63,330 nt of DNA, taken from Thermodesulfobium sp. 4217-1. Lineage in GTDB: Bacteria > Thermodesulfobiota > Thermodesulfobiia > Thermodesulfobiales > Thermodesulfobiaceae. A program made the position numbers and the translations under genes. The DNA is taken from NCBI RefSeq assembly GCF_039822205.1, contig NZ_JBAGBW010000012.1, positions 1 to 63,330 on the forward strand. Reading direction: 5' to 3'. The notes beneath the pieces are model-generated. The model searched no databases and was not told the origin of the DNA. It saw nothing but the letters and a program-made list of their open reading frames with translations. This document shows positions 56,902-61,536 of the stretch, piece after piece. The number at the start of each line of letters is the position of its first letter. The first letter of the stretch is position 1.

Positions 56902-56953
56902 AGTGTCATTATTGACACTTTATGATATAATGTATAGTGTAATAAATGATACT
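56902..56953 (+). promoter_or_regulatory. Extended -10 promoter flanked by two 18-bp dyads
   Basis: AGTGTCATTATTGACACT (56902-56919) is a perfect 7-4-7 inverted repeat. AGTGTAATAAATGATACT (56936-56953) is a second copy with 14 of 18 identical bases. Between them lies TGATATAAT (56923-56931), an exact extended -10 element, with a 4/6 -35 match (GTGTCA, 56903-56908). The first dyad covers the -35 and the second covers the start site, an arrangement expected of a repressor pair. Confidence 0.7.
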
Positions 56954-56980: not shown

Positions 56981-57562
56981 TTGAAGATTGCGTTATCTAT
57001 ATATAAAGAAATCATTGCTCCAGTTTTCGATTCATCAAACGATATAGAAATTGTCGAGATAACTGAAGGCGAAATAACTGGTAGGAAAGTTTATAAAGTC
57101 GATTTGTTAAATATCTTTGATTTCTTTCTTAAAAACAGCGTTGACCTGGTTATCTGTGGTGCAGTTAGCAGACAGCTTGAATCTCAGATATCTGCATATA
57201 CTAAAGTAAATTCTTTTATTTCTGGAAATAAAGAAGATGTTCTTTTAGCATTTATAAAGGGGCACAACCTAAACAGCCTTCTAATGCCAGGCTGCAAACA
57301 AAACAGGTTTAGAAAGGGCTGTCTTGCAAAAAATATTATCTTAAAAGGAGTGATACAAATGCCAAGAGGCGATGGAACAGGACCGATGGGATCTGGTCAA
57401 GCAGGTCAGGGTATGAGAAAAGGTCGCATGGGAGGACAGGGCTTTGGCCCTGGAGGTGAATGTCTGTGCCCAAATTGCGGTACAAGGATTCCTCACAAAC
57501 CAGGAGTGCCTTGCGTCCAGGAAAAATGTCCAAAATGCCAAACGATGATGATTAGAGGTTAA
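56981..57562 (+). CDS. NifX-like domain fused in frame to a Gly-rich zinc-ribbon protein
   Basis: A 193-residue product. Residues 1-110 are NifX-like ([33 protein letters not shown]), then a basic Cys-containing linker. Residues 127-193 resemble the small MPRGDGTGP proteins, with zinc-ribbon pairs CPNC and CPKC. The start is TTG 56981, six bases after AAAGGAAG. No stop separates the parts, yet AAGGAG stands eight bases before the ATG of the second part (57359), so a separate 67-residue protein is probably also made. First gene of the second ORP-type locus. Confidence 0.8.
57345..57361 (+). promoter_or_regulatory. Internal ribosome-binding site at the NifX/zinc-ribbon junction
   Basis: AAGGAG (57345-57350), an eight-base spacer and ATG (57359-57361) in the same frame as the upstream domain. 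Initiation here yields the 67-residue MPRGDGTGP-type zinc-ribbon protein alone. Confidence 0.6.
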
Positions 57563-57594: not shown

Positions 57595-57804
57595 ATGAGA
57601 GGTATTAGAAGATGTAATCCTCGCTGGGTTGGAGGACAAAGGAGTTTTTATGGCAGCGCTATTACAAGCAGCAGGTCGTCGGTACTGTTTTTAATATTCT
57701 TTTTAGGGCTTATTGTCTCTCTAATAATGGGCAGGGTTGAACTAGTGCTTGGATGGACTGCAGTTTTCTTACTTTTGTGGTTTTTAGGATTTTTAAGAAT
57801 ATAA
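57595..57804 (+). CDS. Small two-helix membrane protein of the ORP-type locus
   Basis: A 69-residue protein with a basic N-terminus (RGIRRCNPRW) and two hydrophobic helices (about residues 30-46 and 50-67). AAGGAG precedes the ATG. I do not recognise a family. It lies between the NifX fusion and the DUF5320 gene in one transcript and could anchor the complex to the membrane, which is speculation. Confidence 0.7.
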   Translation: MRGIRRCNPRWVGGQRSFYGSAITSSRSSVLFLIFFLGLIVSLIMGRVELVLGWTAVFLLLWFLGFLRI

Positions 57805-57825
57805 CTATGAAAGGAGGTGACAGAA

Positions 57826-58131
57826 ATGCCAAGAGGTGATGGAACAGGACCGATGGGACAAGGACCAATGACTGGCAGAGGATTCGGATACTGCTCTGGA
57901 AATGCGCAGCCTGGTTTTGTAGGCTCAGGCTTTAGAATGGGCAGAGGATTCGCTCGATGCATGGGCAGAGGATTTTCTGGTTTTGGCAGAGGGTTTGGCT
58001 TGATGAGAGCTTCAATATATAACGATCCGCAAGCTGAAAAAAATATATTGCAAAATCAGCTTAATGCCCTTGAATCTGCTGTCGCAGCAATAAAAAACAG
58101 GCTGGGGTCTATTGGAAAAGAAACCGAATAG
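57826..58131 (+). CDS. DUF5320 family protein
   Basis: A 101-residue protein. It begins [19 protein letters not shown] and continues with Gly/Met/Phe/Arg repeats (MGRGF, FGRGFG). It ends in a short coiled coil (NILQNQLNALESAVAAIKNR). DUF5320 proteins accompany NifX and MinD genes in anaerobes; their function is unknown. AAGGAGGTGA lies five bases before the ATG. The first residues equal those of the zinc-ribbon part of the gene two places upstream. Confidence 0.85.
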   Translation: MPRGDGTGPMGQGPMTGRGFGYCSGNAQPGFVGSGFRMGRGFARCMGRGFSGFGRGFGLMRASIYNDPQAEKNILQNQLNALESAVAAIKNRLGSIGKETE

Positions 58132-58191: not shown

Positions 58192-58554
58192 ATGAAAGTA
58201 GCGTTTACATCACAAGGAGATAATTTAGATTCAGAATTTGACCAGAGATTTGGAAGGGCAATGTATTTTATAATTTATGATACAGAAACCAATGAATCTC
58301 AGACATTGGAAAATATGGCGGGCGTAGAGTCTGCTCACGGAGCAGGAATTAGCGCTGCAAAAAAATTAGTTGATGCCAAAGTAGAGGCATTGGTTACGGG
58401 AAACTGTGGACCAAATGCATTTAATGTTCTTGCTGGAAACGATATAAAAATATATCTTTCAAATTCTAAAACCGTTAGAGAGGCTATTGAAGAGCTTAAT
58501 GGAGGAAGACTACAGATATCAAATTCACCAACTAAAGGTGGGCATTGGAGATGA
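58192..58554 (+). CDS. NifX/orange-protein-like protein
   Basis: A 120-residue NifX-family protein. It begins MKVAFTSQGDNLDSEFDQRF and contains ESAHGAGISAAKKLVD and VTGNCGPNAFNVLAG, the canonical form of the family core. It probably carries a metal cluster with the MinD-type ATPases that follow. GGAGG precedes the ATG and its stop overlaps the next start (ATGA). Confidence 0.9.
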   Translation: MKVAFTSQGDNLDSEFDQRFGRAMYFIIYDTETNESQTLENMAGVESAHGAGISAAKKLVDAKVEALVTGNCGPNAFNVLAGNDIKIYLSNSKTVREAIEELNGGRLQISNSPTKGGHWR

Positions 58555-59405
58555 CTTTAGCTGTTGCATCAGGAAAGGGCGGCACAGGCAAGACTACCAT
58601 CGCTACCAACCTTGCAATGGTAGCAGCCGAAAAATATGGACAGGTAACTTTGTTAGATTGTGACGTAGAAGAACCAAATTCTCACATATTTATAAAAGGG
58701 ACAAAGATTAAAGAGGAAATTGTAAACATAAAAATTCCAGAGGTTGACGAAAGCATCTGTACAGAGTGCGGAGCATGCAGTAATTTCTGTCAATACAATG
58801 CAATAATGTCCCTTAAAGGAAAGCCTGTTGTGTTTAAAGAAATGTGCCACTCGTGTGGAGGTTGTACTCTTGTATGTCAACCAAAAGCCATTCACGAAGT
58901 GGACCACAGGATTGGATTAATCAATTTTTACAGCTTAGGAAAAATAAACCTGATTGATGGCCTTTTAGACGTTGGAAGTCCGCTGAGTCCCCCATTAATT
59001 GGAGCAGTAAAAAAGCTTGAGGGAAAAGACACTTTAAACATAATAGATGCACCCCCAGGAACCTCTTGCCCTGTGATAGAAGCAATAAAAGATGCAGACT
59101 ATATAATTCTTGTAACCGAGCCAACTCCATTTGGGTTAAACGATTTGGTCTTAGCGGTTGAAGTGTCGCGAAAGCTCAATAAAAAATTCGCCGTTGCAAT
59201 AAACAGAGTGGGCTCAGGCGACGACAGGGTGCACAGATATTGTAAAGATGAAAATATCCCTATTATTTTAGAGATCCCTGATGACAGAAGGATAGCAGAA
59301 TTGTATTCAAACGGCAAAACAATCTTGGACAATCTGCCAGAATATAGAAAAAGTTTTGAAGAAGTTTTGACAAAGATTGGTGTGGTGATTCAAAATGGAC
59401 AATAG
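58551..59405 (+). CDS. MinD-family ATPase with inserted ferredoxin domain, copy 1
   Basis: A 284-residue P-loop ATPase with deviant Walker A ASGKGGTGKTT (residues 6-16). A two-cluster ferredoxin insert has CX2CX2CX3C at 70-80 and 99-109. DAPPGTSCP is the switch region. Two adjacent genes of this kind belong to the ORP complex loci of Desulfovibrio. The start is ATG 58551, with AAGGTGG nine bases upstream, rather than TTG 58545. Confidence 0.92.
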   Translation: MTLAVASGKGGTGKTTIATNLAMVAAEKYGQVTLLDCDVEEPNSHIFIKGTKIKEEIVNIKIPEVDESICTECGACSNFCQYNAIMSLKGKPVVFKEMCHSCGGCTLVCQPKAIHEVDHRIGLINFYSLGKINLIDGLLDVGSPLSPPLIGAVKKLEGKDTLNIIDAPPGTSCPVIEAIKDADYIILVTEPTPFGLNDLVLAVEVSRKLNKKFAVAINRVGSGDDRVHRYCKDENIPIILEIPDDRRIAELYSNGKTILDNLPEYRKSFEEVLTKIGVVIQNGQ

Positions 59406-60270
59406 GCCAAGAGAGATTGTGGTAATTAGCGGCAAAGGCGGAACTGGCAAGACGAGCATCAGCGCTTCTCTTGCATACCTATCGCAAGATTGTATAGTTG
59501 CGGATTGCGACGTAGATGCAGCAGATTTATATCTCTTGCTAAAGCCAATTTCAATTGAAAGACAGGACTTTTATAGTGGCCACATTGCTGAAATAAATCA
59601 AGAAAAGTGTGCAGGATGTGGAATATGTAAAGATTTGTGTAGATTTGATGCTATAAAGGCGAACAATAACGCTAAATTTAGCGTAGAACCATCATCCTGT
59701 GAGGGTTGCAAAGTATGTGTCGAATTTTGCCCTGAAAAGGCGATAGATTTCCCAGAAAGACTTTGTGGAGAATGGATGAAATCAGAGACAAGAGTTGGGT
59801 TTATGGTACACGCAAAATTAGGTATTGCAGCAGAAAATTCTGGAAAACTCGTCGCTTTAATCAGAAGCGAAGCAAAAAAGCTTGCGCAAGAAAAGGACAA
59901 AAAATTGATTATCATTGATGGACCTCCTGGAATAGGATGCCCTGTAATAGCGTCTATTACAGGGGCCACAGACGTTTTAGTAGTTACCGAACCTACGCTC
60001 TCTGGCATTCACGATCTTGAAAGGGTATTGTCCCTTGCAAATCACTTCAGGATAAAACCTTATATCTGTATAAACAAATTTGATCTCAATCTGGATATGT
60101 CAGAAAAAATTGAGAGCGTTGCAAAAGAGTTAGGTGCGAAGGTTATAGGAAAGATTAGATATGATAAATTAGTAACCAAAGCTCAAATAGAAGCAAAAAC
60201 AATTGTAGAATCAAATATACCATCAGCACAGGATATAATTGATATGTGGGAAAGATTAAAAGTTAATTAA
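59395..60270 (+). CDS. MinD-family ATPase with inserted ferredoxin domain, copy 2
   Basis: A 291-residue paralogue of the preceding gene, with ISGKGGTGKTS (residues 11-21), ferredoxin cysteines at 72-82 and 102-112, and IDGPPGIGCPV. It overlaps copy 1 by 11 bases. The two presumably form a heterodimer that couples ATP hydrolysis to a redox or metal-transfer step. Confidence 0.92.
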   Translation: MDNRPREIVVISGKGGTGKTSISASLAYLSQDCIVADCDVDAADLYLLLKPISIERQDFYSGHIAEINQEKCAGCGICKDLCRFDAIKANNNAKFSVEPSSCEGCKVCVEFCPEKAIDFPERLCGEWMKSETRVGFMVHAKLGIAAENSGKLVALIRSEAKKLAQEKDKKLIIIDGPPGIGCPVIASITGATDVLVVTEPTLSGIHDLERVLSLANHFRIKPYICINKFDLNLDMSEKIESVAKELGAKVIGKIRYDKLVTKAQIEAKTIVESNIPSAQDIIDMWERLKVN

Positions 60271-60282
60271 TAAGGAGTCATA

Positions 60283-61536
60283 TTGAAAAACGTCATAGCC
60301 CTTTTTGATATTCAAAATATAAGCTCACCTGACATTGGCTCTCTTTTGCTAAACAGTGTAAGCGATGGCATATATGCGGTTGATATGGATTTCAAGATAA
60401 TTTTTTTCAATAAAGCAGCCGAACATATCACGGGGGTGTCAGAAAAAGAAGCAATGGGCAAAAAGTGCTATGACGTTTTCAGATCAAACATGTGCATAAA
60501 CAACTGCCCCATAAGGGAGACGCTTGAAAAAAATGAATGCACAAAAAGACACGGCTATATAATAGATTCTTCAGGGAACAAGGTTTTTATCAGCGTGTCA
60601 AACGTCTTGATAAAAAATTTATCAAATGAAATAGTAAGCGTAGCACAAGTATTTAGAGATCAATCTGAAATAATGGCATTAAGAGAAGAAATCCTAAAAG
60701 TTGAAGAAGATTTTTGTTTTAAGAGCAAAAATCTGATGATGCAAAAAAGCTTTTCGTTTTTAAAAAGTGCCCTGCCAAATACAAACAAACTCTATATTAT
60801 CGGCGAGCAAGGAACAGGTAAGAGCGCCCTTTTCAAATGGATACTGAAGAGCAAAGGCATCAAGAATTTTGCAGAATTTTCTTTGAAGACTGTTAAAGAC
60901 TTAAACCTTGAAAGGATATTTTCTGATTTTAACGCTGTACACATAATGGATATGGATTACATAACAAAAGACTTTAAGGAAAAATTGTCTAATTTTCTGA
61001 AAAAGCTGGGCAATCTTGATGAAAATAACAAATTAATAATTTTTTCATCGTCAGAAGATTGTCTTCCAAGAGATGAGTTTTATTTTATTATAAATGAATT
61101 CAGATTCGAAATAATACCTTTAAGATTTCGAAAGGAAGACATTATTTTTTGTGCAGAAAGCTTCCTCTTTCACTTCAGTAAAATCTATGACAAAAAAATA
61201 TCTGGTTTTACTCAAAATGCCATAAATGCGCTCAATAGCTATGATTATCCAGAAAATATAGAAGAGTTAAGAAATATTATTGAAAGGGCCATCCTTATGT
61301 GCTCAGAAGAAATTATTGACGTAGCTCACCTGCCAGAATATATACAAAAGGATTTTAATATAAAAGAGGGGGTAAATCATAAAGAAAAAGAGATTATCCT
61401 AAACGCTCTCAAAAAAAATGGCTTTAATAGAGACTTGGCAGCAAAGGACCTTGGTTTGACAAGGAGCACTTTTTTTAGAAAGCTAAAAAAATTAGAAATT
61501 GTCGTACCTCGGTCAAATAGATCGATAAAAGATTAA
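60283..61536 (+). CDS. PAS-AAA-Fis regulator with a degenerate AAA domain
   Basis: A 417-residue protein built like a sigma-54 activator. A PAS domain (20-125) has a cysteine group C62, C71, C75 and C86. An AAA region and a Fis-type HTH (365-403, FNRDLAAKDLGLTRSTFFRK) follow. Walker A GEQGTGKS (174-181) is intact. The GAFTGA segment is absent, and Walker B reads IMDMD (221-225) instead of hhhDE. Only about 36 residues separate the two motifs, about half the usual number. It probably cannot activate sigma-54 and may act as a repressor or a redox-responsive switch. TTG start with AAGGAG five bases upstream. Confidence 0.88.
   Translation: MKNVIALFDIQNISSPDIGSLLLNSVSDGIYAVDMDFKIIFFNKAAEHITGVSEKEAMGKKCYDVFRSNMCINNCPIRETLEKNECTKRHGYIIDSSGNKVFISVSNVLIKNLSNEIVSVAQVFRDQSEIMALREEILKVEEDFCFKSKNLMMQKSFSFLKSALPNTNKLYIIGEQGTGKSALFKWILKSKGIKNFAEFSLKTVKDLNLERIFSDFNAVHIMDMDYITKDFKEKLSNFLKKLGNLDENNKLIIFSSSEDCLPRDEFYFIINEFRFEIIPLRFRKEDIIFCAESFLFHFSKIYDKKISGFTQNAINALNSYDYPENIEELRNIIERAILMCSEEIIDVAHLPEYIQKDFNIKEGVNHKEKEIILNALKKNGFNRDLAAKDLGLTRSTFFRKLKKLEIVVPRSNRSIKD

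Follow-up and report, generated by a model that had tools for sequence, protein, structure and literature searches.

A degenerate bEBP, probably a repressor of its own ORP operon, in the rpoN-less genus Thermodesulfobium

The last gene of an ORP ("orange protein", an iron-sulfur/molybdenum protein) operon in Thermodesulfobium sp. 4217-1 encodes what is probably a former activator of ORP operons, surviving as a repressor of this operon and of itself that responds to a ligand or to redox state. The gene lies in a 63,330-nt stretch of DNA (contig NZ_JBAGBW010000012.1, positions 1 to 63,330; hereafter, the window). We found no paper on this regulator protein among open-licence papers. An initial annotation of the window had suggested a switch from sigma-54 activation to repression or ligand-gated control; the evidence presented below supports such a switch, with repression argued from the overlap of putative operators and promoter.

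The 417-aa regulator has the layout of a bEBP, comprising a PAS domain, an AAA core, an AAA lid and a Fis-type helix-turn-helix (HTH). Its gene and recognizable elements are as follows.

60283-61536, forward strand: ORP-operon regulator, degenerate bEBP, 417 aa, TTG start, last gene of the operon (from the ORF and comparison)
60349-60669, forward strand: PAS domain, residues 23-129 (Pfam)
60466-60507, forward strand: PAS cysteine motif C62-x8-C71-x3-C75
60802-60825, forward strand: Walker A, GEQGTGKS, intact, residues 174-181 (alignment)
60937-60954, forward strand: Walker B remnant, HIMDMD, residues 219-224, lacking the Glu, with the GAFTGA segment missing directly upstream
61069-61353, forward strand: AAA lid, residues 263-357, in which arginine finger R263 is kept, I269 marks the lost second finger, and the sensor II Arg is E327
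61384-61494, forward strand: Fis-type HTH, residues 368-404 (Pfam)

Pfam models recognized the PAS domain (PAS_9, 1e-13), the lid (AAA_lid_14, 2.8e-21, residues 281-357) and the HTH (HTH_8, 8e-11) with scores comfortably over their cut-offs, whereas Sigma54_activat reached an E-value of only 0.15 and failed its cut-off. Searches of NCBIfam and of PDB sequences likewise returned bEBPs, matched mostly through the lid and HTH. To define the state of the motifs, we aligned the regulator with 43 intact relatives. The GAFTGA segment is deleted, and the spacing from the Walker A Lys to the Walker B Asp is 42 residues, compared with 65 in the relative from G033. The Walker B sequence FLDEIG of the relatives is replaced by HIMDMD, or by HIKDLD in two species of the genus, so the catalytic Glu is gone. 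The second arginine finger is changed from R to I or N, sensor I from N to S or C, and sensor II from R to E in the regulators of the genus. All 43 relatives, in contrast, keep the Walker A Lys, the Walker B Asp-Glu pair, both arginine fingers and the sensor II Arg, and their loop motif is of the GAFT type in 42 and GVFTGA in one. Thus, among the hallmarks of a functional sigma-54 EBP, Walker A is present, and the GAFTGA loop, the Walker B Glu, the second arginine finger and the sensor II Arg are missing. The motifs predict a protein that binds ATP without hydrolyzing it.

We modeled residues 123-417 with AlphaFold (mean pLDDT 86.7, pTM 0.73) and recovered the AAA core strands, the lid and the HTH. 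Just two residues connect the helix preceding Walker B to the Walker B strand, and the model therefore indicates that the L1 loop is absent. The closest solved folds are bEBPs (ZraR, NtrC1, VpsR and NtrX), at TM-scores of ~0.6 that are partly accounted for by domain orientation. Alignment and model together bear out the initial annotation in its claims that the sigma-54-contacting segment and the catalytic glutamate are lost while Walker A, PAS and HTH remain; neither revealed a GAFTGA-type loop. The changes in the second arginine finger, sensor I and sensor II are additional to those named in that annotation. The bEBPs used for structure alignment came from a second scan of viral contigs; a first such scan found no relatives of the regulator. 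Both the GAFTGA segment and the Walker B Glu are likewise missing from a bEBP-like protein encoded by an IMG/VR contig (L170:484-1281).

We next placed the regulator among its relatives. A search of 336 genomes yielded many close bEBPs, of which 43 were examined together with their surroundings, and ~30 of these adjoin NifX- and Mrp-type ORP genes. In a tree built without the AAA core, the regulator falls inside the ORP-regulator clade (20-row set; bootstrap/SH-aLRT 100/99), on a long branch that makes its exact sister uncertain. DVU2106 itself was left out of this tree, and the outgroup row out_O022 was dropped for its end branch of 10. Three PAS cysteines (C62, C71 and C75) are kept in the regulator and in 43/43 ORP-type relatives, a pattern suggestive of metal or Fe-S sensing. 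Nesting in the tree, NifX- and Mrp-type neighbors, the three cysteines and paired dyads are all found for the regulator; tree, neighborhood and PAS cysteines support its membership in the lineage of ORP-operon activators. The ancestry that the initial annotation had read from the layout is thus upheld by phylogeny and synteny.

The cognate sigma factor is missing from the genus. Searches with the Sigma54_DBD and Sigma54_CBD models found no rpoN in 4/4 genomes, two of them single contigs; both models match in G033 and G027. By comparison, rpoN is present in 37 of 38 genomes of relatives with intact regulators, the exception being a draft of ~180 contigs whose congener G316 has the gene. A strict −24/−12 promoter match adjoins the regulator gene in ~14 of the intact loci; we found none near the ORP locus of the window. 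These searches answered two checks proposed in the initial annotation, namely for rpoN in the genome and for a −24/−12 promoter that would have counted against it. No protein of the window's genome other than the regulator scores above the cut-off for a bEBP-type lid. Three other PF00158 matches proved to be two ClpC-like proteins and one ComM/Mg-chelatase-like protein, not bEBPs.

The regulator gene closes an operon that begins downstream of two dyads and a promoter.

56902-56919, no strand: putative operator 1, AGTGTCATTATTGACACT, overlapping the −35 position
56903-56931, forward strand: sigma-70-type promoter, GTGTCA-17-TATAAT, with an extended −10 (TGATATAAT, 56923-56931)
56936-56953, no strand: putative operator 2, AGTGTAATAAATGATACT, spaced 34 bp from operator 1 and lying over the inferred transcription start
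56981-57562, forward strand: first gene, an in-frame fusion of a NifX/ORP-like domain with a tail that is glycine-rich and has a zinc ribbon
57595-57804, forward strand: small hydrophobic protein, 69 aa, probably a membrane protein
57817-58131, forward strand: DUF5320 protein (Pfam)
58192-58554, forward strand: NifX/dinitrogenase FeMo-Co domain protein, ORP-type
58545-59405, forward strand: MinD/Mrp-type ATPase with ferredoxin insert, ORP cluster (Mrp1)
59395-60270, forward strand: MinD/Mrp-type ATPase with ferredoxin insert, ORP cluster (Mrp2)

Within the first gene, an internal ATG near 57361, preceded by a strong Shine–Dalgarno sequence (AAAAGGAGTGA), begins the tail (MPRGDGTGP). This start is conserved in the two congeners with sequence for the region, so that the gene may yield two products.

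The dyads, of the type GTRTCA-N4-TGAYAC, bracket the extended −10 promoter. In the three upstream regions that could be aligned, all from one genus, the dyads and the sequence TTTATGATATAAT between them are conserved, their flanks diverge, and the −10 is invariant; for the fourth genome, the site pair alone was seen. The dyads and sigma-70-type promoter already noticed in the initial annotation are therefore shared by three species. The pair occurs once in each of the four genomes, at the ORP operon, and its spacing is always 34 bp. The paired motif GTNNCA-N4-TGNNAC was found once in the window and in 0/30 Markov-shuffled windows. A general scan for paired palindromes returned three other pairs in the window (mean 0.6, maximum 3 in shuffles), within the shuffle range, so that only the family-specific motif discriminates. 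Promoter-like matches as a class are no commoner than in shuffles, and the case for this promoter thus rests on its conservation and layout.

Because the putative operators sit on the promoter, we prefer repression to activation with sigma-70. It is unlikely, on this evidence, that the regulator activates the ORP operon in a sigma-70-dependent manner, in the way of VpsR or Rhodobacter NtrC, recruiting RNA polymerase upon binding ATP or another ligand: relative to the inferred start, the dyad centers lie at about −28 and +6 rather than upstream of where the polymerase sits, and a promoter with an extended −10 element usually needs no activator. Such a role would nonetheless suit the retained Walker A and PAS domain and the presence of VpsR among the closest solved folds, as well as the precedent of Rhodobacter capsulatus NtrC, which requires ATP binding but not hydrolysis (PMC10274813). 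As VpsR and Rhodobacter NtrC do activate with sigma-70, the promoter overlap favors repression without proving it.

The ORP regulators of other genera (L096-L135) appear to share a site, GTYGCA-N4-TGCRAC, often paired 32 bp apart. In 26/43 loci, this site occurs no more than 500 bp from the regulator gene, and in that interval it is 6.5-fold denser than in the rest of the loci, an enrichment that is descriptive since the pattern was derived from the same loci. The usual distance between successive sites is 32 bp (29-34), although longer gaps also occur, and a number of copies are found upstream of the gene for the regulator itself. The window sites have GTnnCA-N4-TGnnAC in common with the family sites (with one mismatch in operator 2), at a similar pair spacing, whereas 2 of the 6 half-site positions differ, and the recognition helix of the regulator differs from that of its relatives. 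These last two differences could mean that the dyads belong to another repressor, with the regulator acting at other sites or solely as a partner of other proteins in a PAS-dependent way. We consider this quite unlikely, given that dyad geometry and pair spacing agree with the family sites near the relatives' genes, that the pair is confined to the regulator's own operon, and that the genome has no second bEBP-type protein.

The regulator is present in three further species of the genus (98, 80 and 80% identity); the motif losses are common to all four, and in the two congeners with full context it is the last gene of the same operon. We estimated dN/dS at ~0.1 for the whole protein and for every domain that allowed an estimate of dS, among them the degenerate AAA core (0.11, G001 versus G003). 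An intact reading frame in four species and purifying selection show that the gene is neither a pseudogene nor an assembly error. It is thus highly improbable that a decaying remnant is being kept by operon position alone, as the loss of every ATP-hydrolysis motif and the long tree branch might suggest.

The preferred reading, a repressor derived from an activator, would run as follows. The regulator descends from a sigma-54 activator of ORP operons of the DVU2106 type. The genus lost sigma-54, and the regulator its sigma-54-contacting loop and ATP-hydrolysis residues; it retained its PAS sensor, a Walker A motif for nucleotide binding, and both the AAA/lid scaffold and the Fis HTH. Regulator dimers would bind the two dyads 34 bp apart, covering the −35 position and the start region, and so shut RNA polymerase out of the operon's single sigma-70 promoter. 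The lost motifs and their fixation under selection, the missing rpoN, the ancestry and the layout of dyads and promoter are read directly from sequence; beyond these, we infer binding of the regulator to the dyads, repression by that binding, redox or metal sensing by the PAS cysteines, and ATP binding without hydrolysis. On the simplest reading, only the repression arm would have outlived sigma-54 and would now govern the whole ORP operon, the regulator included; the position of its gene at the end of the operon implies autoregulation. We give about an even chance to a fuller version, in which evolution, once rpoN was lost, turned a sigma-54 activator entirely into a repressor dedicated to sigma-70. 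The ancestral enhancer pair would then have moved onto a sigma-70 promoter with its spacing almost unchanged, half-site and recognition helix would have changed together, and the catalytically dead AAA part would have been retained as a ligand-responsive scaffold joining the two operators.

This reading has a precedent in Desulfovibrio, where DVU2106 activates the orp promoters that depend on sigma-54 and, by way of an overlapping site, represses the sigma-70 promoter of its own gene (PMC3897727). By description, the D. vulgaris protein resembles the window's regulator as an ORP-cluster regulator with palindromic sites and autorepression by promoter overlap (PMC3897727, PMC4641369). It differs in having GAFTDA and in driving two sigma-54 promoters with IHF; the loop, the ATP-hydrolysis residues, sigma-54 and the −24/−12 promoter are all missing here.

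bEBPs without GAFTGA that work at sigma-70 promoters are established, among them TyrR, DhaR, HupR, VpsR and Rhodobacter/Caulobacter NtrC (PMC3162934, PMC10274813), and Fusobacterium and Jannaschia retain a bEBP despite having no sigma-54 (PMC3162934). VpsR of Vibrio cholerae, a bEBP with a defective GAFTGA that acts at sigma-70 promoters, comes from a different lineage and is an activator that binds c-di-GMP. The NtrC proteins of Rhodobacter capsulatus and Caulobacter share the L1/GAFTGA deletion and the regulation of sigma-70 promoters, and the one of Caulobacter also represses, but they are two-component response regulators, with ATP binding required in R. capsulatus and hydrolysis predicted to matter in Caulobacter (PMC10274813). 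TyrR, PhhR, DhaR and HupR are bEBP paralogs without sigma-54 contact (PMC3162934); they belong to other families with other ligands and are unlinked to ORP loci. The parallel with TyrR drawn in the initial annotation accordingly holds as an analogy but not as kinship, TyrR being of a different lineage, and VpsR and alphaproteobacterial NtrC serve equally well. What is new here is the ORP lineage, the joint loss of all hydrolysis motifs and the family-type operator pair on a sigma-70 promoter.

Together, these data offer a comparative snapshot of the fate of a sigma-54 regulator whose sigma factor is gone: the sensor, the DNA-binding domain and the operator pair are retained, the motor is dead, and the putative operators sit on a sigma-70 promoter. 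GTYGCA-N4-TGCRAC is in turn a predicted binding site for the ORP regulators of many anaerobes. As DVU2106 both activates with sigma-54 and represses its own sigma-70 promoter, the proposed passage from activator to repressor would be directly testable.
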